A stretch of 58,043 bases of DNA from Thermoplasmatota archaeon (GTDB taxonomy: Archaea > Thermoplasmatota > Thermoplasmata > Thermoplasmatales > Thermoplasmataceae): contig JAMCPG010000044.1 of NCBI GenBank assembly GCA_023379845.1, positions 1 through 58,043 on the forward strand, in the 5' to 3' direction. Position 1 is the stretch's first letter. Every line of letters starts with the position of its first letter. Both the position numbers and the translations under genes were made by a program. Positions 43,790 to 56,934 of the stretch are shown here, one piece after another. The notes under the pieces are model-generated. The model was not told the DNA's origin and searched no databases. It worked only from the letters and a program-made list of their open reading frames with translations.

Positions 43790-43877
43790 GCCGGGGTGGC
43801 TCAGTTGGTAGAGCGTCGGACTCATAAGCGCAAGCTGAGAAATCCGAAGGTCTTGGGTTCGATCCCCGATCCCGGCA
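43790..43877 (+). tRNA. Elongator tRNA-Met (CAT) with a 15-nt intron
   Basis: The 88-nt gene folds into a cloverleaf: acceptor GCCGGGG with TCCCGGC, D arm GCTC/GAGC, anticodon stem TCGGA/TCCGA, T arm TTGGG TTCGATC CCCGA, and discriminator A. The anticodon CAT is at 43823-43825. Acceptor and anticodon stems match archaeal elongator tRNA-Met; initiator features (A1-U72, three G-C pairs in the anticodon stem) are absent. CCA is not encoded. An intron interrupts position 37/38. Confidence 0.95.
43827..43841 (+). other. tRNA-Met intron in a bulge-helix-bulge motif
   Basis: The exon-intron boundary folds as GGA/TCC outer helix, a four-pair central helix CTCA/TGAG, three-base bulges TAA and AAA, and an inner GC/GC helix closed by GCAA. 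Cutting after the second base of each bulge removes exactly 15 nt and restores a 7-base anticodon loop CTCATAA. Confidence 0.9.
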
Positions 43878-46352: not shown

Positions 46353-47927
46353 GTGTTCCTCAGATTTACAAAGGTCAGGAGAGGATCTGCTGTACTTGAA
46401 TATGCATCGATCGCCGAAAGGACCATAGTGGATAATAAACAGAAAACCACCACGGTGAAATATCTTGGTCCTGTAAAATCCAATGAAGACAGGGAGAGAT
46501 ATAACAGCATATTTGAGGAATACAGAGATGCCATGAAGAAATTCTCCCTTGACGACCTGAAGGTCATGCCAACACTGTCCTTTGGTCTGTTCTATGCCTC
46601 CAGGAACATAATGGAGAGAAATGGAATACTTGGAGTTCTGGGAAGGCATACCGGATCATATGCGGAAATCCTTTCCTTCATGATCATTTCCAGAATATTT
46701 GATCCGTCATCGGATCTTGAGTTGACCGATCTGGCAGGGAGGGTATTCTATCCATGGCAATTACACCTGAGTGAAGATAATGTATATCGATCGCTTGATT
46801 CCATCATTGAAAAGAAGGATCAAATAGAGGTGGAAATATTCAAGGCACTGAAACCTGATACCTCATCGGTTCATTATGATCTCACATCATCATATTTCGA
46901 GGGGAGGGAGGATAATGATCTTGTTCTCTTTGGATATTCCAGGGACAAGAAGAGAGGAAAGGAACAGATTGTTATAGGACTTGTGATGGCTGACGGCATA
47001 CCAATACATCATGAGGTGTGGCCGGGAAACACAATAGATCCAAAGACGCTTGGACCAACAATATCAGCACTGAAGGACCGTTTTGGAATACGGAATGTGA
47101 CCTTCATTGCCGACCGGGCGTTTGGAAGATCGAAGTCGCTTGATCTTCTTGATCAAAACAGGTATATCACCGCAGCATACCGGTGGGATCAACCATATCG
47201 TGATATATTGATGGATACCGATTTCACCGATGCAATTGCAATGGATAAACTCCTCATAAAAAGGTTGGCGATAAATACAGACGATATACTGGATGATGAT
47301 TCCACCGAGGATCAGCGGAAACTCGCCGAAAAGAGAAAATACACTGCGGTATACAACAGGGAAAGGGAAGAGCTTGATCTGAGGGATCTTGACGACAGAA
47401 TCAGCGTGATAAAGAAGAAAATATCAGAAATTCATGATCAGGCAGAACTGAAGAAATCTCTTGGTAAGATGAAATCACTGGTGAAGTTCACAAAGAATGG
47501 TACAGTACTGAATGAGAATAGAATCAATATACTGAAGAAAATTGCAGGAAGATTCCTGATCGTTACCAATACCGATCTACCGGAAAGTGAAGTTGTATCC
47601 GCATACAAGGAACAGTGGGAAATAGAACGCTCATTCCGCACCATAAAATCATTCATTGAGATAAGACCGGTATATCACAGGAAATCGGAGAGGATCAGGG
47701 CCCATGTGTTTGTGTGTGTACTGTCTCTTCTCCTCTCACGGATCATGGAAAAACGTACCGGAAAAACAATAGAGATGATACGAAGGTCCTTGAACAGTCT
47801 GGATGTTGTTCCGGTTAATGTTGATACGAGGAATATATACATTTCATCGGAGAGCCGGGAAGCTTCCCACATTCTGAAAACACTGGGTCTGCCATATCCC
47901 AGAATCCGTGAATGTGCACATACATAA
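46353..47927 (+). CDS. IS1634-type transposase (DDE)
   Basis: A 524-residue transposase of the IS4 superfamily. The N-terminal part (VKYLGPVKS, about 40) precedes the DDE fold: first Asp in VHYDLTSSYFEG, second in VTFIADRAFG, and Glu in the YREK-like segment YKEQWEIERSFRTIK. The C-terminus IRAHVFVCVLSLLLSRIM is the usual helix of IS1634. The start is GTG 46353, since an in-frame stop lies 12 bases upstream. The frame is intact, so the element may still be active. Confidence 0.9.
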   Translation: MFLRFTKVRRGSAVLEYASIAERTIVDNKQKTTTVKYLGPVKSNEDRERYNSIFEEYRDAMKKFSLDDLKVMPTLSFGLFYASRNIMERNGILGVLGRHTGSYAEILSFMIISRIFDPSSDLELTDLAGRVFYPWQLHLSEDNVYRSLDSIIEKKDQIEVEIFKALKPDTSSVHYDLTSSYFEGREDNDLVLFGYSRDKKRGKEQIVIGLVMADGIPIHHEVWPGNTIDPKTLGPTISALKDRFGIRNVTFIADRAFGRSKSLDLLDQNRYITAAYRWDQPYRDILMDTDFTDAIAMDKLLIKRLAINTDDILDDDSTEDQRKLAEKRKYTAVYNREREELDLRDLDDRISVIKKKISEIHDQAELKKSLGKMKSLVKFTKNGTVLNENRINILKKIAGRFLIVTNTDLPESEVVSAYKEQWEIERSFRTIKSFIEIRPVYHRKSERIRAHVFVCVLSLLLSRIMEKRTGKTIEMIRRSLNSLDVVPVNVDTRNIYISSESREASHILKTLGLPYPRIRECAHT

Positions 47928-48046: not shown

Positions 48047-49870
48047 ATGTCAAAACGTTATTCTGTGAAATCTAGAGCAATAATTGCAATTGCTTTTTTA
48101 GCGGTTGTATTAATGATCTTGGGAGGAACTGGGAATTATATAGTCGGGGAATCAACTGCGAAAACAATAGCTAAGGTTAATCCGACAGGCACGTTCATTT
48201 TTGGGTCTGTACAAGGGCCGCTTACAGATTTAAATCCAATTACTGCAACAAGCACTGCTAGCGACATAACAAGTTTGCTATACAGTTCGCTGTTATATCC
48301 TGGATCAAGCGGTGGTTTGATACCTTGGCTAGCTAAGTCGTACAACGTATCGAATGATGGGCTGACGATTACCTTCAACTTGGTAAGCAACGCCACATGG
48401 AGTAATGGTGCCAAAGTAACTGCCAGTGATGTGAATTTCACATTCCAATCGATCCTAAAGTACCCAAGCATAGATTTCAACTCTTATAATAGATACATCA
48501 ACAATATAGATATTCTAAATAACTACACTGTTGTATTCCACCTTAAACAATATTACAATCCTCTCATATACGAAATAGGGACAGAACCAATAGTCCCGGC
48601 TGTCTGGGGAAACAATCCTTATACAGCAAATCTGTCTAGTTTCACGAATTATGCATCTAACATAACCTCAGGCTCATATTCTGCATCCAATCTTATCACA
48701 GATGGCCCTGTGATACTTACGAGCATGACTACAGCTGGAGGGGCGGTTTTTAAGACGAACCAAAACTTCTTTAAAGGAGCACCAGACTATTCAAAAATGA
48801 TATGGGAATTCTTTGCAACCACATCTGATGCTACAGCAGCTCTGGAGAGTAAAAGTATCGACGCATTCTGGGGACCATACACAGATAAAGGCCTTTTTGC
48901 TAAACTAGGATACCTCACAAGTGTTAGTGCCCCCTCTTCATACATATTTTACGTATGGTTTAATGATAAAATCGCTCCATTTAACAACACTGATTTAAGA
49001 AAAGCCGTTGCTTATGTGTTAGATAAACAATACCTAAATGATGTAGCTTTAGTTGGGGCTGGATTAAATGGTTCTAATGGTGGACTTCCATACTTATTTA
49101 AGAATCAAATACCATCCGGCCTACCTTATTACCATCATAATCTTACGGCTGCCACTAATATGATGATCTCAGGAGGCTTTATAAAGACAAATGGTGAATG
49201 GTACTATCCAAACGGTACACAGTTACAAGTCACACTGATTGAGCCCCCACTCGCAGACTGGGTGACAGCTGGACAGATCGTAGCCCAAAACCTGACTTCA
49301 TTTGGAATCAAGACTACTTATGTTTCCGACACGTTCGCAACATGGAATAACAACGTAGGAGATGGTGATTTTCAAATAACATACTTCGGCTACACTGGAT
49401 ACGCCCCAACGGCATGGTCTGTTCTAGACACATTGTTTAATGCAAACTCAAGTGCACCAATGGGTCAGACTGCATGGACGCACGGATGGAACGTGGAAAG
49501 GTACAACAGCTCTACGGTAAACATGCTTCTTGCGGAAGCTGCCTCGACACCTAATGCCTCACAAGAGCAACAATACCTTAACCAAGTGCAGGCTGTGATA
49601 GCAAATCAGCTACCACTTCTAATGATAGATGATCCTCCAACGTTTTTTACTTACAATAACTATACGATTGTTGATAACACACCGAGTTATAACATCGCTT
49701 GGATGATCAGTGTTGAGAACATACAGGTCTTAGAACATCTGAACCAAACTTCTTCCAATACATTGCTGTATGTCCTAGGTGGCATTTCAGCGGCTATAGT
49801 TATTGGAGGGGTGGCAGCGGCTGTAGTCCTTAGAGGCAAGAGGCTGAAGAATTCTAGGAAAGAGGACTAG
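48047..49870 (+). CDS. ABC transporter substrate-binding protein (peptide/oligosaccharide type)
   Basis: A 607-residue SBP_bac_5-family protein. A hydrophobic signal or anchor (about 9-30) is followed by the family core FIFGSVQGPLTDLNPITATS, WLAKSYNVSNDGLTITFNL, WSNGAKVTASDVNFTFQSI and LRKAVAYVLDKQYL. There are many N-x-S/T sequons, a C-terminal membrane helix (about 575-597: LLYVLGGISAAIVIGG) and a basic tail. Double anchoring outside the cell and glycosylation fit archaeal binding proteins. Binding specificity within the family (peptides, oligosaccharides) cannot be read. Confidence 0.87.
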   Translation: MSKRYSVKSRAIIAIAFLAVVLMILGGTGNYIVGESTAKTIAKVNPTGTFIFGSVQGPLTDLNPITATSTASDITSLLYSSLLYPGSSGGLIPWLAKSYNVSNDGLTITFNLVSNATWSNGAKVTASDVNFTFQSILKYPSIDFNSYNRYINNIDILNNYTVVFHLKQYYNPLIYEIGTEPIVPAVWGNNPYTANLSSFTNYASNITSGSYSASNLITDGPVILTSMTTAGGAVFKTNQNFFKGAPDYSKMIWEFFATTSDATAALESKSIDAFWGPYTDKGLFAKLGYLTSVSAPSSYIFYVWFNDKIAPFNNTDLRKAVAYVLDKQYLNDVALVGAGLNGSNGGLPYLFKNQIPSGLPYYHHNLTAATNMMISGGFIKTNGEWYYPNGTQLQVTLIEPPLADWVTAGQIVAQNLTSFGIKTTYVSDTFATWNNNVGDGDFQITYFGYTGYAPTAWSVLDTLFNANSSAPMGQTAWTHGWNVERYNSSTVNMLLAEAASTPNASQEQQYLNQVQAVIANQLPLLMIDDPPTFFTYNNYTIVDNTPSYNIAWMISVENIQVLEHLNQTSSNTLLYVLGGISAAIVIGGVAAAVVLRGKRLKNSRKED

Positions 49871-49904
49871 TGTAGTACCGGATTAACCCTTATAAAAGCA
49901 AGCA

Positions 49905-49912
49905 TTTTTTTT
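49905..49912 (+). terminator. T-run between binding-protein and permease genes
   Basis: Eight T residues 34 bp after the stop codon could partly terminate transcription and keep the binding protein more abundant than the permeases. A TATA-like CTTATAAAAG at 49890-49899 could restart it. Confidence 0.35.
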
Positions 49913-49953
49913 AAAAACTTGTTTTTAACCTCTTTCATTACTTGGTGATACAT

Positions 49954-50946
49954 ATGATAACAAGGAGATATTTGATTCGGAGACTTATTAATGTTCTAAT
50001 TATTGCGTACGGTGCAATAACAATTAATTTCATCTTGCCCCGTATTATTCCTGGAAACCCTGTCATGACCAACCTATTTGCTGGAGGTGGAGGGCAGATA
50101 GGTAATCCTGTTGTTATAGCTAGACTAACACAAGAATTTGGTCTTAATAACCCGAATCTATTTTATCAGTATTCTTTGTACCTCACCCAGCTAATTCATG
50201 GTAATCTTGGTATTTCCTTCTACTATTACCCACAGACAGTTTATTCGGTCATAATGGAGAGATTACCATGGACCTTACTTCTTGCAGGATCTGGAACGCT
50301 GATTGCTGCAGGATCTGGAATTCTTGTAGGTATTTACCTCGCTTGGAAAAAAGGGACAATACGTGACTCTTTCTTTTCGTCAGTTGGCATGATGATATCG
50401 TCAATTCCATATTTCTGGATAGGAATGATTTTTCTGATATTGTTTGCTGTAGACATAACAATATTTCCTGTCGCTCACGCTGTCACACCTGGTGTGACAT
50501 ATCATAATATTTTTTCATACATGGGAGATATTCTTTATCATGCATTTCTTCCCATCACTACATTGGCGGTGGCACTTTTGCCTATTTACGCCTTGCAGAT
50601 GAGAAATACTATGGTTACTGTTATGCATGAAGACTTCATGAAGACAGCTATAGCAAAGGGGCTACCAGACTCGGTAGTAAAAATGAGATATGCTGCTAGG
50701 AACGCTGTCCTACCAGTTACGACACACGTTGGATTATCGCTTGGCTATGTTGTAGCTGGAGCACTAATGATAGAATATCTATTTGCTTACCCTGGAGTAG
50801 GTTATACTCTGTTCATCGCCATACAGAATGAAGATTACCCATTGATGCAGGGCATCTTCCTGATCATAAGCCTGATGGTTATAGCAGCTAATTTTTTGGT
50901 AGATATCTTGTACACCTATCTTGATCCGAGGGTGAATCTACGTTGA
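49954..50946 (+). CDS. ABC transporter permease, DppB type
   Basis: The 330-residue permease has an N-terminal helix (YLIRRLINVLIIAYGAITINF) ending in RIIPGNP, and the EAA loop region TAIAKGLPDSVVKMRYAARNAVLPV. Six membrane helices and the C-terminal YTYLDPRVNLR are typical of DppB/OppB. ATG 49954 is preferred to the upstream TTG 49942; a GGTGA lies five bases before it. It overlaps the next gene by 4 bp. Confidence 0.92.
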   Translation: MITRRYLIRRLINVLIIAYGAITINFILPRIIPGNPVMTNLFAGGGGQIGNPVVIARLTQEFGLNNPNLFYQYSLYLTQLIHGNLGISFYYYPQTVYSVIMERLPWTLLLAGSGTLIAAGSGILVGIYLAWKKGTIRDSFFSSVGMMISSIPYFWIGMIFLILFAVDITIFPVAHAVTPGVTYHNIFSYMGDILYHAFLPITTLAVALLPIYALQMRNTMVTVMHEDFMKTAIAKGLPDSVVKMRYAARNAVLPVTTHVGLSLGYVVAGALMIEYLFAYPGVGYTLFIAIQNEDYPLMQGIFLIISLMVIAANFLVDILYTYLDPRVNLR

Positions 50947-51836
50947 ATAATGGAAGGGTAGATATTGCATTGCAAGAAAACAATGCAATCATTGCAAGTA
51001 GAGCGAAACGAGTAACAGTGGCACTCTTCAAGAGTAAGAGAACCACATTTGGCGTTGCAGTACTTGCCTTTTTTTTGATTCTTGCCATATTAGGTAGATT
51101 CATAGCGCCATACAATCCGCTTATACAGTCTGGCCCATTGTGGAGTCCACCATCTGAGTCTCACTTATTCGGCACGAATTACCTAGGACAAGACGTTCTT
51201 TCGTGGTTTATTATAGGTACTGCCACATCATTGTGGGTCGGAGTTTCTGTTGCATTTTTCTCAGCACTCATCGGTGTATCTGTTGGCCTTACTGCAGGAT
51301 ATTTTGGGAAGTACACGGATGAGGTACTCATGAGATTTGTAGATATGCTGCTTGTCATTCCGGCCTTCCCACTTCTCGTAATTTTATCGGCATATCTACC
51401 TCCTACAACCAACTCTACAATACTAATACTTTCAGTTCTGTCATGGCCTTTCATGTCGAGGGTAGTCAGGTCTCAAGTACTCTCGCTGAAGGAAAGGGGA
51501 TTCGTTACTGCATCAAAGCTAGCAGGTGAGAGCCGTTTAAAGATTATGTTCAAGGACATTCTGCCAAACATGCTGCCAATCATCTTCATCAACATCATAT
51601 ATCTAGTAATCGGAGCTATCGTAGCCCAAGCTGGTCTTGCCTTTTTTGGCCTTGGCAACATAAATTCAATAAACTGGGGAACAATGCTCTACTGGGCCCA
51701 GATAGAGGACGCAGCAATACAAAATGCATGGTGGTGGATAATACCACCTGGATTGGCAATTGGAATTCTTGGTCTTGGTCTGAACATGCTTGCCAATGGA
51801 ATATCAGATATGATACTTCTAAATCAAGGGAGGTAA
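50943..51836 (+). CDS. ABC transporter permease, DppC type
   Basis: The 297-residue partner permease: the N-terminal helix near 38-58 and the DppC-type segment FIAPYNPLIQSGPLW...HLFGTNYLGQDVLS, then a membrane core with the EAA loop VTASKLAGESRLKIMFKDILPNM. The start is a TTG overlapping the dppB stop (TTGA) with an AGGGTGA upstream; no other start lies close. It forms the channel with the preceding gene product. Confidence 0.92.
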   Translation: MNNGRVDIALQENNAIIASRAKRVTVALFKSKRTTFGVAVLAFFLILAILGRFIAPYNPLIQSGPLWSPPSESHLFGTNYLGQDVLSWFIIGTATSLWVGVSVAFFSALIGVSVGLTAGYFGKYTDEVLMRFVDMLLVIPAFPLLVILSAYLPPTTNSTILILSVLSWPFMSRVVRSQVLSLKERGFVTASKLAGESRLKIMFKDILPNMLPIIFINIIYLVIGAIVAQAGLAFFGLGNINSINWGTMLYWAQIEDAAIQNAWWWIIPPGLAIGILGLGLNMLANGISDMILLNQGR

Positions 51837-51842
51837 AATGAG

Positions 51843-52844
51843 ATGAGTGTGCTTGAAATTGAGAACTTGAACGTTTATTACATAATGAATTCCAGGAGGA
51901 TTCATGCAGTAAGGAATCTATCCATTAAAATAGAAGAAGGAGAAGTCCTTGGCTTGGTCGGTGAAAGTGGTAGCGGAAAATCAACATTTGGTATGTCCTT
52001 GTTAAGGATTCTACCCGAATCAGCTAGAATAACAGCAGATAAAATGGTATTTAAACGGGTAAATTCAAACGGACAGATTTTAGATTCGGATATCTTAAAG
52101 TTGTCGGAAACCAATTTGAGGAGGCTTAGGTGGAACCACATTTCCATGATATTTCAGAGTTCCATGAATTCTCTTAACCCGGTTGCACGCATAGAGGATC
52201 AACTTGCAGACGCCCTGTTCTGGCATGGATACAAAAAGGGCATTATAGATGAACGCATAGACAACTATCTAAGGCTTGCAGAGCTTCCCGAATCTGTTAG
52301 ATATTCCTTCCCTCACGAGCTGAGTGGAGGGATGAAGCAACGAGTCGCTATTGCAATGTCACTAATCTGCAATCCGGAACTTGTAATTGCCGATGAGCCA
52401 ACAACTGCGCTTGATGTTGTAGTGCAGAGAAAAATACTGAAATTGCTAGTGGAAAGCAAGAGCAAGCTCAAGCTTTCTGTTATATTTATAACACATGATA
52501 TCTCCTTACTTGCTTCTCTTGCCCAGAGAGTTGGTGTGATGTACGCTGGCTCTCTTGTAGAACTTGCACCGGCAAACGAACTTTTTAAGAGCCCCCTACA
52601 TCCTTATTCAATAGGTTTGATGGCTACAATTCCGAAACTGGAAGATGTAAAGGATGAACTTTTTGAGTTGCCCGGTTCTCCCCCGGACATGTCAAAGGAG
52701 GTAGTTGGTTGCCCCTTTACAGCTAGGTGCAAGTATGCAAGTCAAATATGTATATCTCAGACACCTGATCTAAGACAAATTGCGCCTGGGCATTTTGTGT
52801 CCTGTCACAACGCGGAGGTTATAAAAAATGGAATCAATAATTGA
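51843..52844 (+). CDS. Oligopeptide ABC transporter ATPase, DppD type
   Basis: The 333-residue ATPase has Walker A GESGSGKST, Q-loop MIFQSSMNSLNP, signature LSGGMKQRVAIAMSL, Walker B LVIADEPTTALD, H-loop FITHD, and the C-terminal oligopeptide-transporter domain with four cysteines (GCPFTARCKYASQIC...SCH). GGAGGT lies nine bases before the ATG. It overlaps the next gene by 17 bp and pairs with it to energise import. Confidence 0.93.
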   Translation: MSVLEIENLNVYYIMNSRRIHAVRNLSIKIEEGEVLGLVGESGSGKSTFGMSLLRILPESARITADKMVFKRVNSNGQILDSDILKLSETNLRRLRWNHISMIFQSSMNSLNPVARIEDQLADALFWHGYKKGIIDERIDNYLRLAELPESVRYSFPHELSGGMKQRVAIAMSLICNPELVIADEPTTALDVVVQRKILKLLVESKSKLKLSVIFITHDISLLASLAQRVGVMYAGSLVELAPANELFKSPLHPYSIGLMATIPKLEDVKDELFELPGSPPDMSKEVVGCPFTARCKYASQICISQTPDLRQIAPGHFVSCHNAEVIKNGINN

Positions 52845-53817
52845 AGTGAGAGACCTCGTGAAATCATTTAGAGCTTCTAGAGGAATTTTTAGAAAAAACC
52901 AATACACACAAGTCGTTGAGGCTGTTGCCAAGGTCTCATTCTCAATCAAGCCAAAAGAAATAATATCGGTTGTGGGTGAGAGCGGATCTGGAAAAACAAC
53001 GCTTGGAAGACTTATTGTCAGACTCCTCGAACCTAACTCTGGGAAAATTCTCTTCAAGGGGCAAGACATTTTTACTCTGAAAACAAACGATATGCTGAAC
53101 TTTAGGAGGAATGTCCAGATGATCCTCCAAGACCCTTACGACTCACTGAATCCACTTTATTCTATTGAAACAAGCGTTGTTCAGCCACTCAATATCTTCA
53201 TGAAGAACATGTCAAGGAAGACCAAGCGAGAGATTGTTATCAAGAATCTTGAAAAGGTTGGCTTAAATCCAGCAGAGCAATTTCTGCAGAAAAGACCAGG
53301 TGAGTTAAGTGGGGGTCAGAGACAACGCGTGTCAATTGCAAGGGCCATGATAATGGATCCGAAGTTAGTTGTTGCGGATGAGCCTGTTTCAATGCTTGAT
53401 GCTTCTCTCAGAGCAGAGATATTAAATAAGATGAAAAAACTGAAGGATACCAATGACGTATCGTTCATGTTTATCACTCACGACATTGCCACTGCCAAGT
53501 TCATGGGAGACAGGATTTTGATATTTTATAAGGGAGCAATAGTCGAACAGGGAAATACAAGTGCTGTAATTAATAATCCAAGTCATCCATACACCAGATT
53601 GCTAATCGATTCAGTCCCACCAATTAATCCCGAAAAAGCAAGGGATTACCTATCTTTTAAAGAGGAAGCCGGGATTGAGGACCAGATTTCCACCAGCAGT
53701 GCGGGATGCAGATTCGCGAATAGGTGCCCCTTTGTTATGGAAAGGTGCAGAACCAATGCACCAAACGAAGTCGATATTAGTTCCGATCATAGAGTTTCTT
53801 GCTTTCTTTACGGGTGA
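52828..53817 (+). CDS. Oligopeptide ABC transporter ATPase, DppF type
   Basis: The 329-residue second ATPase has Walker A GESGSGKTT, Q-loop MILQDPYDSLNP, signature LSGGQRQRVSIARAM, Walker B LVVADEPVSMLD and the C-terminal cysteine motif GCRFANRCPFVMERC...SC. A GGAGGT precedes the ATG by eight bases. It is the last transporter gene. The next gene, murQ, continues in the same reading frame beyond the single TGA at 53815. Confidence 0.93.
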   Translation: MESIIEVRDLVKSFRASRGIFRKNQYTQVVEAVAKVSFSIKPKEIISVVGESGSGKTTLGRLIVRLLEPNSGKILFKGQDIFTLKTNDMLNFRRNVQMILQDPYDSLNPLYSIETSVVQPLNIFMKNMSRKTKREIVIKNLEKVGLNPAEQFLQKRPGELSGGQRQRVSIARAMIMDPKLVVADEPVSMLDASLRAEILNKMKKLKDTNDVSFMFITHDIATAKFMGDRILIFYKGAIVEQGNTSAVINNPSHPYTRLLIDSVPPINPEKARDYLSFKEEAGIEDQISTSSAGCRFANRCPFVMERCRTNAPNEVDISSDHRVSCFLYG

Positions 53818-53898
53818 TATATAATTAGGGAAAATGAAGATTGTTACAGCCATCTCGAGACAGAGGAAATATCTAATAGCTTTTCTAGGCTTGACACT

Positions 53899-54741
53899 TT
53901 GGACACCGTAAAATTACTACATATTATAAATAAAGAGGACAAAATAGTTCCTGAGGTAGTGGAAAAATCCATTCCGGAAATTATTGGAATAGTCGAGGAA
54001 GCAACAAAACAGATAAGTAAGGGAGGAAGAATGATATATGTTGGCGCTGGAACCGCTGGGAGACTTGGTGTTCTTGACGCAGCCGAGTGCGTGCCTACTT
54101 TCGGCGCGTCTCCAGAAACTGTAATCGCAGTAATAGCTGGGGGCTATAATTCTATTAGTCATCCAACTGAGGGAGCGGAAGATAGCTTTTCATCAGGTGA
54201 AGCCGAGATGGACAGAATTGCAGTTGGAAGAGACGATATCGTGATAGGAATAGTTGCGTCTGGAAGGGCACCGTACGTCATGGGTGCTCTTAAGAGAGCT
54301 GGCGAACTCAAGGCCGTAACTGCAGCAATAGTTAACGTATCAAACCCAGCTGTTCGAAAGTATTGTGATCACTTAGTAACATTGCTTGTTGGGCCAGAAG
54401 TTATTGCTGGATCTTCAAGAATGAAAGCTGGAACCTCGGAAAAACTTGTTTTAAACATGATCTCAACTGCCGTTTTTGTGAAGCTTGGAAAGGTGTATGA
54501 TAACCTAATGATAGATATTCGTCCGGTTAATGAAAAGCTCAAGGAAAGAATGGTAAATATAGTTCGAAAAATAACCGATGTTAACCGCGACTCCGCTCTC
54601 TCAGCTTTGATTGAAGCAGATTGGAACATAAAGGCGGCAATAATCATGGTTTTAAACCCAATGTCACTGGAAAATGCAAAAAATATTTTAGCTTTATGTA
54701 ATGGAAATCTCAGATGTGCATTATCTAAATTTAAAAAATAA
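53899..54741 (+). CDS. murQ: MurQ-like N-acetylmuramic acid 6-phosphate etherase
   Basis: This SIS-domain etherase splits MurNAc 6-phosphate into GlcNAc 6-phosphate and D-lactate in bacterial cell-wall recycling. Seen: INKEDKIVPEVVEK, the sugar-phosphate loop MIYVGAGTAGRLGVLDAAECVPTFG with the Glu that corresponds to the catalytic E83 of E. coli MurQ, HPTEGAEDS, VGIVASGRAPYV, GPEVIAGSSRMKAGTSEKLVLNM and GKVYDNLMID. Only a TTG at 53899 is available. Homology-like sequence (LETEE...LDTLDT) continues in frame upstream for about 16 codons without a start, so the N-terminus is uncertain. It follows the peptide transporter directly. Confidence 0.82.
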   Translation: MDTVKLLHIINKEDKIVPEVVEKSIPEIIGIVEEATKQISKGGRMIYVGAGTAGRLGVLDAAECVPTFGASPETVIAVIAGGYNSISHPTEGAEDSFSSGEAEMDRIAVGRDDIVIGIVASGRAPYVMGALKRAGELKAVTAAIVNVSNPAVRKYCDHLVTLLVGPEVIAGSSRMKAGTSEKLVLNMISTAVFVKLGKVYDNLMIDIRPVNEKLKERMVNIVRKITDVNRDSALSALIEADWNIKAAIIMVLNPMSLENAKNILALCNGNLRCALSKFKK

Positions 54742-54851
54742 ATATGTTTCCTCTACTTTTGTCTAGAGTGTTTTGAAGACTCTGTGAATTGTTCACTCAT
54801 CTTTGGACAATTTGGAGAATTATCTTAGCGTCCAGAATTATAGTTAATTAC

Positions 54852-55071
54852 CTACAATATTATATTTTTGTTTAGGAATTTCCCCCCCATCTTTTTTGAA
54901 AATGTCAGCCTTCTGATAACTTCGGGAAACTTTTTTATTGTATCTTTTAGTTTCTCTTCAGATCTATTGCCTCCACGGATAAGACTCTCCCTGCGCCCTT
55001 CCGGATCAATTCTATTGGATTCAAATCAGTAGAATAGGAGGCAGGAATACCAGCTTCATATTCGTGTAATA
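54852..55071 (-). pseudogene. IS630-type transposase remnant (C-terminal part)
   Basis: The minus strand shows MKLVFLPP and, after a frame change, YSTDLNPIELIRKGAGRVLS. After another break it continues EEKLKDTIKKFPEVIRRL and FSKKMGGKFL. The FLPPYS-x-x-LNPIE box is diagnostic of the IS630/Tc1 C-terminus. Two frameshifts make it non-functional. It joins directly to a fragment of another transposase. Confidence 0.7.
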
Positions 55072-55262
55072 GCCGAAGTCAAGTATCAGTTTCTCCTTAG
55101 ATGGCTCACTGCTAGGATGAATGATATTCTTTGTGACATGATCAACCTGGTCAAGATGCCTGCTCTTCTGTGCAGGTCCCTTGTTCATCCTGTCATAATA
55201 AGATGAGACTTCATAGGCATAATCCTTGTTGCCAATCCTCTGATCGGATCCGTAACAACAGA
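55072..55262 (-). pseudogene. Transposase N-terminal remnant (IS1634-like)
   Basis: The minus frame reads YGSDQRIGNKDYAYEVSSYYD, HLDQVDHVTKNIIHPSSEPSK and EKLILDFG. This is the pattern of N-terminal domains of IS4-superfamily archaeal transposases. It breaks off into IS630 sequence at its 3' side and into an oppositely oriented C-terminal fragment at its 5' side. Confidence 0.55.
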
Positions 55263-55535
55263 TACCCCTACCTGAGGGATGACGATTCCCTGCGGGGATA
55301 TCTTTTTGTTTCATTCATTTCTCTCATTGCATATTACCGCATCCTGAGTCTCCTGAAGAAAAAAGGTATCAATGATCGTATCAGTGTGAAGGATGCGATC
55401 CTTCAGCTGTCAAAGATCTATCTGACAGATGTTGGAAACAGATCAATTCTGGCAGAGATGCCAAAGAAGGTCCGTGAACTTGCGGAACTGCTGGGCATGG
55501 AACCATATCAGTTCCCTAAAAGTGTTCCGAGTTAA
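55259..55535 (+). pseudogene. Transposase C-terminal remnant (IS1634-like)
   Basis: The plus strand reads YLRDDDSLRGYLFVSFISLI, YRILSLLKKKGINDR and MPKKVRELAELLG, the typical end of IS4-superfamily archaeal transposases. The catalytic part is absent. It lies head-to-head with the N-terminal fragment, implying an inversion or two insertions followed by deletion. Confidence 0.65.
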
Positions 55536-55683
55536 GGTTAGAAAGGGAAAGATTTTATGCCGAAGTTACCATTGCAGTATAAATGAGCATTCAACGCTTC
55601 AGTTGCTCTGTGATATGCTGTTTGCTTTTTATATAAGTGCTTTTAATTAAAAAGGATTTTTAATGATAAGTCATTGATTGCTT

Positions 55684-56934
55684 ATGAAAATTACGAACAA
55701 AAGGAAATTTGTAATTTGTGCAGGAGTCTTACTAATAGCTTCGATGTTTTTGTTTACATCTTTTAGTATGTCTGTTTTTACATTGTCAGAAAACTCGAGC
55801 CAAGCGACCGCAGTCTCCTCATACAGCATAGTAGCACCGACAAAAACGCTCACTTCCCAGGACAAGTATCAGTCAATGATCTGGATATGCCAGTTCTGTG
55901 GCAGTCAGGTAAATTATACTAAAATGATAGAGAAATATCATGGTTTGATAACCGATCTATCGTTTGAAGATTATTATCTTGCATCAAATGAAACTTTTCA
56001 AAGTTTGGGGCTTAATCTCCCTCTACAGTTAGCGCATAGATACCATCTAAGTACATTCCCAATGATCGCATCTCACTTACCAGGTGAGATGCATATTCTG
56101 TTCACGAATAGTTCAGTTCAATCTGCATTTATATCAAGCGCAGTAAAGGCCGCTTTGACTAATGATTTTACAGGGTACAATATTGATTTTGAAGTACCAT
56201 ACTACAGTGATTCGCATGCAGTAACAGAGTTTGTTGAAAACTTTTCAAACGCGTTGTTGGCTGTCGGTAAAGAATTAACCATTGATGTACCTGGTGTCAC
56301 TGGACTTTTCAGCCCAAGCGTTCATGGAGCCGCCTACAATTATTCCGCTTTGGCTAAAACCTCTGTTTCCCTTATAGTTGTGATGGATTACTTTTCAATC
56401 GGCGACTTTTATAATGCAGTAAACTATTCAGTTGCTAATGTCCCCCTTAATAAGCTAATGATTGCACTGCCTGACTACTCTTATTCATTCTATGTGAATG
56501 TCACATCTAATTGTCCATTCCCTAACAACCTTGTTCCGCCCTATGTAAATCACTCCTTTAAAGGCATGTATGGTGCCCTGAAGTCCATTCTCCATAACGC
56601 AAGAAAGGATCATGCCAAGATATCGAACCATTTTAGCTCATTCTATGGAGAGCCTTACTACGAGATCATATATCCTCAGAACAAGACCCTTGGGGTTGAG
56701 TTTTACTACATAAACAACAAAGCAATGTCTCTACGCCTGAATTACCTTGAGAAGCTAAACATTGACATGGTTGCAATGTGGAGAGCGGGGGCAGTAGATC
56801 CCAACCTTTTCTCCTCAGTAAAAATGTTTTATGTGCATACTGCTATACATGCACTTGAGGAGACAGTTTTCCAGATGGTTCTGAACATTGAAAACAACTA
56901 TCCAATGATGATGTCTTCGAGAGAATCGTTTTAA
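55684..56934 (+). CDS. Secreted GH18-like protein (YaaH/SleL-related)
   Basis: A 416-residue protein with a basic N-terminus and hydrophobic signal (about 8-32). The TIM-barrel cues of GH18 are the fourth-strand motif TGYNIDFE (about 163-170; general acid Glu kept, first two Asp replaced), the MDYFS strand (about 234), and the end VEFYYINNKAMSLRLNYLEK with MVAMWRAGA, as in YaaH/SleL enzymes that cut N-acetylglucosaminyl bonds in peptidoglycan. Several sequons suggest glycosylation. ATG 55684 is preferred to TTG 55678. Activity is not certain given the altered motif. Confidence 0.68.
   Translation: MKITNKRKFVICAGVLLIASMFLFTSFSMSVFTLSENSSQATAVSSYSIVAPTKTLTSQDKYQSMIWICQFCGSQVNYTKMIEKYHGLITDLSFEDYYLASNETFQSLGLNLPLQLAHRYHLSTFPMIASHLPGEMHILFTNSSVQSAFISSAVKAALTNDFTGYNIDFEVPYYSDSHAVTEFVENFSNALLAVGKELTIDVPGVTGLFSPSVHGAAYNYSALAKTSVSLIVVMDYFSIGDFYNAVNYSVANVPLNKLMIALPDYSYSFYVNVTSNCPFPNNLVPPYVNHSFKGMYGALKSILHNARKDHAKISNHFSSFYGEPYYEIIYPQNKTLGVEFYYINNKAMSLRLNYLEKLNIDMVAMWRAGAVDPNLFSSVKMFYVHTAIHALEETVFQMVLNIENNYPMMMSSRESF

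Follow-up and report, generated by a model that had tools for sequence, protein, structure and literature searches.

A MurQ operon and a candidate peptidoglycan-scavenging pathway in wall-less Thermoplasmata archaea

What might a wall-less archaeon do with an etherase that, in bacteria, belongs to the catabolism of murein sugars? The gene in question, murQ1, lies in a stretch of 58,043 nucleotides (here the window: contig JAMCPG010000044.1 of assembly GCA_023379845.1, positions 1 to 58,043) from a member of the Thermoplasmataceae whose genome we call G000. It is the last gene of a single same-direction operon, SBP-dppB-dppC-dppD-dppF-murQ (48047-54741, plus strand), in which a family 5 solute-binding protein (SBP) gene and four Dpp-type genes (48047-53817) encode an ATP-binding cassette (ABC) importer; a GH18 protein gene follows about 0.9 kb downstream (Table 1). 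The original prediction, made from these letters alone, proposed that muropeptides are cut outside the cell, imported and converted to N-acetylglucosamine (GlcNAc) 6-phosphate, and it is supported by the identity of MurQ, by co-occurrence across genomes and by a second gene cluster on contig C27. We consider it probable that a bacterial-type peptidoglycan catabolic pathway is run for scavenging by this wall-less archaeon. Its near-complete bacterial murein toolkit suggests feeding on bacterial neighbours.

The window SIS protein is a true member of the MurQ etherase family, for which N-acetylmuramic acid (MurNAc) 6-phosphate etherase activity is predicted. It exceeds the curated equivalog cutoff of TIGR00274, and its best solved structure is the MurQ of H. 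influenzae (266 bits, against 91 bits for glucokinase regulatory protein). The two catalytic residues, Glu83 and Glu114 in E. coli numbering, are kept in all 16 archaeal MurQ sequences compared (the window MurQ1, four other MurQ1 and 11 MurQ2). In the tree, archaeal MurQ1 and MurQ2 each form a single clade (100/99) that excludes the sampled bacteria, with the window MurQ1 grouping with Sysuiplasmatales-type sequences; a common origin of the two paralogues is neither shown nor rejected (p-AU, approximately unbiased test, 0.45). A MurQ-like etherase with its catalytic glutamates had been predicted, and placement among the non-etherase SIS enzymes named as the outcome that would tell against it; the opposite was found, since profile, structure match, residues and tree all indicate MurQ.

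The second murQ of G000 lies on contig C27 in a cluster (L031) that encodes, in order, an M19 dipeptidase, NamZ, an L-Ala-D/L-Glu epimerase, a NagZ-like GH3 protein, a CocE/S15 hydrolase, a PBP4B-type beta-lactamase-fold protein, MurQ2, NagA, a SIS-type protein resembling glucosamine-6-phosphate deaminase, an NlpC/P60 protein with SH3 domain, AnmK, dppFDCB and an SBP of its own. NamZ carries both of its domains (NamZ_N PF07075, 198 bits; NamZ_C PF20732, 99 bits), NagA scores 255 bits with TIGR00221 (cutoff 226), and among solved structures the epimerase comes closest to dipeptide epimerases, one of them an L-Ala-D/L-Glu epimerase (1jpm). MurQ2, at 263.8 bits, is below the TIGR00274 cutoff and over those of PRK05441 (304.5 versus 168) and PRK12570 (270.9 versus 255). 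Its subfamily (e.g. L031:9019-9867) is about 25-30 C-terminal residues shorter than MurQ1 and bacterial MurQ, at the end of the lid region. No signal peptide is visible in NamZ, NagZ or NlpC/P60, and digestion by these enzymes therefore seems to be intracellular. The synteny of the cluster is kept within the genus, in G203 and G204, and the ratio of nonsynonymous to synonymous substitution rates, taken only where synonymous sites are unsaturated, is 0.03-0.2 for its genes. The primary pathway lies on C27; the window locus is a second, accessory copy bordered by insertion sequences (IS), which Sysuiplasmatales-type relatives also have. Upstream of the C27 cluster is a 1360-residue protein with a thermopsin domain (L164:52-4134), probably secreted.

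The lack of a visible MurNAc kinase had been the gap in the predicted pathway, and a look through the rest of the genome for a kinase and NagA/NagB had been proposed. The gap no longer stands: besides NagA and the SIS-type deaminase-like protein, G000 encodes a putative AnmK in the C27 cluster and a NagK/MurK-like kinase on contig C45. AnmK converts anhydro-MurNAc and ATP to MurNAc-6-phosphate. The C27 protein matches its Pfam family (PF03702, 255 bits), scores 372 bits with PRK09585.3-2 (cutoff 387) and has the motif DTGPGN, where levoglucosan kinase has DTGPGT. The C45 kinase has homologues that adjoin NamZ, NagZ or MurQ inside the cluster in most relatives' loci. At the positions of T94 and S133-P134-L135 of Tannerella forsythia MurK, placed by eye, it has ND and SGW, which resemble the pocket residues of the solved MurNAc/GlcNAc kinase 8zo3 (ND, GGW), unlike those of Tannerella MurK. 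With the C27 genes and the C45 kinase present, the route from MurNAc to fructose-6-phosphate is complete on paper in G000.

Do these families travel together? In one fixed set of 200 Thermoplasmata genomes, 12 match MurQ strongly, at E 8e-36 or lower; TIGR00274 at 1e-3 has hits in 163, mostly to other SIS proteins. All genomes with AnmK (9/9), NamZ (9/9) or MupG (4/4) fall within those 12, a confinement whose chance is about 2e-13, 2e-13 and 8e-6, respectively, if kinship is ignored. Kinship alone is insufficient to explain the co-occurrence, because the two families that hold the 12 also have many negative members. In a phylum-wide sample MurQ is found in 14 of 390 genomes, from five families. 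Recycling of murein of their own was considered and rejected: MurA is over its cutoff in none of 14 genomes, each of which has at most one Mur_ligase_M protein, of folate-ligase size, and the organisms therefore make no murein.

More than 20 Thermoplasmata genomes carry these genes in reshuffled order; the carriers include the window's family, a Sysuiplasmatales-type family, an Aciduliprofundum-labelled metagenome-assembled genome (L095) and the closed chromosome CP009479.1, among others. The neighbourhood search suggested with the original prediction finds importer and murQ as one operon in three Sysuiplasmatales-type genomes, G056, G040 and G072. Relatives add a MupG beside murQ1 (PF19200, 209 bits), a TIGR00502 NagB, a DppA-type D-aminopeptidase, an S13 carboxypeptidase, an S66 LD-carboxypeptidase and the diaminopimelate decarboxylase LysA (TIGR01048, 386 bits, cutoff 298); in L086 a window-type SBP, MupG and the kinase are adjacent to each other. 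Bacteria offer parallels in murQ genes that adjoin a MupG or N-acetylglucosamine kinase gene, and in a Deinococcus series of SBP, murQ, beta-lactamase-fold and SIS genes. Taken with the pathway proposed below, several Thermoplasmata lineages are likely, if somewhat less surely than the pathway itself, to be peptidoglycan-degrading heterotrophs, which would import muropeptides through ABC transporters and live on wall sugars, D-lactate, D-amino acids and diaminopimelate.

Other features of these neighbourhoods deserve mention in their own right. The same kinase family adjoins murQ in L150 (Planctomycetota), which also has NamZ and a PBP4B-type protein, and in L140 (Abditibacteriales). A 320-residue protein that matches nothing in Pfam or NCBIfam always stands beside MupG (L032:7185-8147, L033:13540-14550, L034:7105-8067, L043:4969-5931, L086:4404-5378) and is a candidate for a new enzyme of the murein-sugar pathway. 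A GlcD/GlcF-like D-lactate dehydrogenase pair lies inside six clusters (e.g. L036:16123-18977, L037:13922-16747, L089:5354-7902, L169, L170). In Mycoplasmopsis cynos (L181), a wall-less bacterium, a MurQ-annotated gene adjoins nagA, possibly a parallel case of wall-less MurNAc scavenging.

The window importer is complete, as predicted, with SBP_bac_5, two BPD_transp_1 permeases and two oligo_HPY ATPases. Judged by eye, the SBP has an N-terminal signal-like segment and a C-terminal membrane anchor; it is 66% identical to the murQ-adjoining SBP of G056 and 71-73% identical to the MupG-adjoining SBP of L086. In the proposed pathway its substrate would be muropeptides or other murein fragments. 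The GH18 protein scores 28.2 bits with its Pfam profile, slightly below the cutoff of 29.6, and a five-sequence GH18 profile matches solved structures of one branch: 4q6t, YdhD (46 bits), YaaH (43) and SleL (35). The GxNxDFE motif, which includes the catalytic DxE, is invariant, and the predicted YaaH/SleL-type features are borne out at the level of the branch. The N-terminus has a hydrophobic, signal-like segment (by eye), in keeping with the description of the protein as secreted. AlphaFold models of the SBP and the GH18 protein (predicted local distance difference test 50 and 40) were too poor and were not used. Close GH18 homologues (about 46-51% identity) occur solely in G056, G040 and G072; in G056 and G040 they lie on the murQ1 contig, 12-18 kb off and near a NagZ-like GH3, and a more distant homologue in L083 adjoins NlpC/P60 and an SBP. 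That the GH18 gene belongs with the murQ operon is moderately supported; these neighbourhoods favour, short of proof, its acting in one pathway with it. An endo-glucosaminidase would yield MurNAc-GlcNAc, the substrate type of NamZ. In its phosphorylated form this disaccharide is the substrate type of MupG (PMC6262408). Near GH18 and GH3 in Sysuiplasmatales-type genomes there are also type I phosphodiesterase, sulfatase and DUF3604-type genes (L055:9868-11799, L056:7794-16096, L057:947-10000, L033:14662-18093), perhaps for other bacterial wall polymers.

What the sequences show is gene content, family membership, conserved clustering, co-occurrence, the kept catalytic residues of MurQ and the absence of MurA. 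The reactions, the import substrate, the direction of flow and the nutritional role that we infer would be as follows. Secreted enzymes, among them the candidate GH18 endo-N-acetylglucosaminidase, would cut the murein of dead or lysed bacteria to MurNAc-GlcNAc and muropeptides, which the SBP-5/Dpp importers, the window copy and the C27 copy, would take up. NamZ, NagZ, the beta-lactamase-fold amidase/carboxypeptidase and NlpC/P60 would break the fragments down in the cytoplasm; in relatives, the kinase and MupG would split phosphorylated MurNAc-GlcNAc. AnmK, acting on anhydro-MurNAc, and the NagK/MurK-like kinase, acting on MurNAc, would both produce MurNAc-6-phosphate; as they would phosphorylate with ATP, a phosphotransferase system (PTS) would be unnecessary. 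MurQ would take off D-lactate to leave GlcNAc-6-phosphate, and NagA and the SIS-type deaminase would lead on to fructose-6-phosphate. The stem peptide would be used by way of the L-Ala-D/L-Glu epimerase and dipeptidases, to which relatives would add LD-carboxypeptidase and diaminopimelate decarboxylase.

Several observations weigh against this proposal. The G000 assembly is a draft with a completeness of 84%. The nearest solved relatives of the SBP bind chito-oligosaccharides, glutathione/heme or peptides, MppA being a weaker match; a binding protein specific for plain peptides or sugars had been named as telling against the original prediction, and on this point the result is neutral. Sulfolobus hexokinase is a slightly better match to the C45 kinase (89 bits) than a MurNAc/GlcNAc kinase is (80 bits), and relatives without MurQ have such kinases too. 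The C27 AnmK shares 35% identity with E. coli AnmK, hardly more than the 30% it shares with levoglucosan kinase. In G089 the AnmK-family protein (L058:3619-4902) is encoded away from any murein cluster; its N-terminal motif, SGSSVDS, is divergent, and it may be another anhydrosugar kinase. MurQ releases D-lactate; the GlcD/Fe-S pair was dropped as a marker of this product, since each of the 22 genomes tested has homologues, those without MurQ among them, so that the gene is not diagnostic and its placement alone is suggestive. The linkage of GH18 to murQ is loose, and the start codon of murQ1, an ATT, may reduce its expression. The weakest links are the specificity of the SBP, the MurNAc specificity of the kinase, the linkage of GH18 and the expression of murQ1.

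The last of these leads to the best-surviving alternative, which is itself doubtful and would be compatible with scavenging by the organism as a whole: murQ1 is decaying or poorly expressed beside transposable elements, and C27 alone matters. The mechanically called open reading frame starts at TTG 53899, by which the conserved N-terminus is lost. Extended upstream in frame to ATT 53824, it begins IRENEDCYSHLETEEIS, which aligns with the N-terminus of a relative, MKEFEGKYSHLETEEIS. The ATT occupies the position of ATG in three relatives, 6 nt 3' of the dppF stop, and is preceded by a Shine-Dalgarno-like GGGTGAT or AGTGAT common to the window and its relatives, with the spacing kept; going by this alignment, the true murQ1 start is ATT 53824, upstream of the TTG. 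ATT is a legal but rare start codon. Besides this replacement of ATG, decay is favoured by the IS1634 element on one side and the transposase remnant on the other, and by the lack of MurQ1 in five further genomes of the genus, none of them complete. It is opposed by a reading frame unbroken over 300 residues, with all catalytic residues, by the kept GGGTGAT and spacing, and by the intact importer upstream. The tree placement of MurQ1, its absence from those five genomes and the IS elements together suggest that the window operon was transferred between Thermoplasmata lineages, in a direction and at a time that are matters of inference. A composite transposon was ruled out, because the two flanking IS1634-family elements have no similarity to each other detectable by blastn or tblastx. 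Of the predicted series of importer, MurQ and GH18 genes, importer and murQ are contiguous; GH18 is not contiguous with murQ, as the transposase remnant intervenes.

Less probable again is that the pathway serves defence, detoxification, muropeptide sensing or the harvest of self-killed prey instead of passive scavenging. Bacteria-killing peptidoglycan hydrolases are known from archaea (PMC12352652), and the thermopsin-family protease adjoining the C27 cluster is predicted to be secreted; however, the route to fructose-6-phosphate, the stem-peptide enzymes and the importers point to catabolism, and a canonical secreted muramidase is not seen in the clusters. More improbable still is a non-murein amino sugar as the substrate (chitin, N-glycans or another GlcNAc polymer), for which MurQ, NamZ and AnmK would have been repurposed. 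The chito-oligosaccharide-binding relatives of the SBP and the levoglucosan kinases within the AnmK family fit that idea, GH3, NagA, the SIS deaminase and the kinase are equally usable for GlcNAc, and the discoverers of MupG proposed a non-murein role for archaeal MupG-like proteins (PMC6262408). Yet each of MurQ, AnmK, NamZ and MupG is a family of murein-sugar metabolism, and the four strictly co-occur; both catalytic glutamates persist in all 16 archaeal MurQ sequences compared, and the epimerase, diaminopimelate decarboxylase, LD-carboxypeptidase and NlpC/P60 of the clusters suit the stem peptide of murein and no other evident substrate. Contamination with bacterial DNA, which a draft assembly and bacterial-type enzymes might bring to mind, is hardly credible and largely refuted, because the cluster occurs in closed CP009479.1 and single-contig G067, archaeal MurQ1 and MurQ2 form clades separate from sampled bacteria, and archaeal-type genes surround the window locus.

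Table 1. Genes and elements of the murQ1 locus (window positions)
Feature	Position	Strand	Evidence
IS1634-family transposase, 5' border of locus	46353..47927	+	NCBIfam NF033559 313 bits, cutoff 100
Extracellular solute-binding protein, SBP family 5	48047..49870	+	PF00496 (SBP_bac_5) 182 bits
ABC permease, DppB/OppB type	49942..50946	+	PF00528 130 bits; 75% identity to G056 operon gene
ABC permease, DppC/OppC type	50943..51836	+	PF00528, OppC_N; NF045476 Opp4C 211 bits
ABC ATPase, DppD/OppD type	51843..52844	+	ABC_tran + oligo_HPY
ABC ATPase, DppF/OppF type	52828..53817	+	ABC_tran + oligo_HPY; stop 6 nt from murQ start, as in relatives
murQ1, N-acetylmuramic acid 6-phosphate etherase (predicted)	53824..54741	+	TIGR00274 325 bits, cutoff 302; start alignment
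Decayed IS1634-family transposase C-terminal fragment, in murQ1/GH18 gap	55170..55535	+	NF033559 33 bits, model 399-482
Secreted GH18 protein, YdhD/YaaH/SleL branch, putative endo-beta-N-acetylglucosaminidase	55678..56934	+	likely start ATG 55684

Elsewhere in the window, a tRNA at 43790-43877 (Rfam, 57.9 bits) was overlooked by ARAGORN.

If the proposal is true, bacterial necromass is recycled by Thermoplasmata, and murein sugars are no longer a currency exclusive to bacteria. Such a peptidoglycan-eating trophic mode in archaea would be undescribed in the literature searched, in which, most subscription journals being left out, no report of archaeal MurNAc catabolism was found. The non-murein role expected in the MupG paper (PMC6262408) would be disfavoured, at least in Thermoplasmata with MupG beside MurQ. 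Strock et al. (2025) described secreted archaeal peptidoglycan hydrolases that kill bacteria, including a GH25 of A. boonei, noted an enrichment of OppBCDF-MppA importers in hydrolase-carrying archaea and suggested uptake; MurNAc catabolism is not described there, and 'muramic' and 'recycl' are missing from the main text (PMC12352652). Those hydrolases are archaeal and directed at bacterial peptidoglycan, as the present system would be, but here the genes of an intracellular pathway are present, which would answer the genetic half of their question of bacteria as food or foe and names the genes to test.

How does this system compare with its bacterial counterparts? The window GH18 shares its profile matches and GxNxDFE motif with the cortex- and peptidoglycan-acting glucosaminidases YaaH, SleL and YdhD; unlike them it is archaeal, no LysM domain was found in it, and its activity is a predicted one. 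With the bacterial MurNAc recycling operons (murR-murQ-murP-yfeW of E. coli, mupG-murQ-murP-murR of S. aureus and murQRP-amiE-nagZ-namZ of B. subtilis) the archaeal clusters share MurQ, NagZ, NamZ, MupG, a PBP4B/AmiE-type beta-lactamase-fold protein, NagA and a glucosamine-6-phosphate deaminase-like protein. Unlike in these operons, the host is an archaeon without murein or MurA, SBP-5/Dpp ABC import would replace the MurP PTS, phosphorylation would fall to the putative AnmK and a NagK/MurK-like ATP kinase, digestion is seemingly intracellular and there are two MurQ paralogues. The murTKQ system of Tannerella forsythia scavenges MurNAc released from the murein of other cells, by means of MurQ and a MurNAc kinase that uses ATP (PMC10465942). 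The archaeon would likewise pair a candidate MurNAc kinase with MurQ and rely on outside murein, but whereas the bacterium Tannerella still builds peptidoglycan, in the archaeon the product could only be catabolised. All of the enzyme families are known from bacteria; what would be new is a bacterial pathway in a wall-less host, in which ABC import and ATP kinases take over from the PTS.

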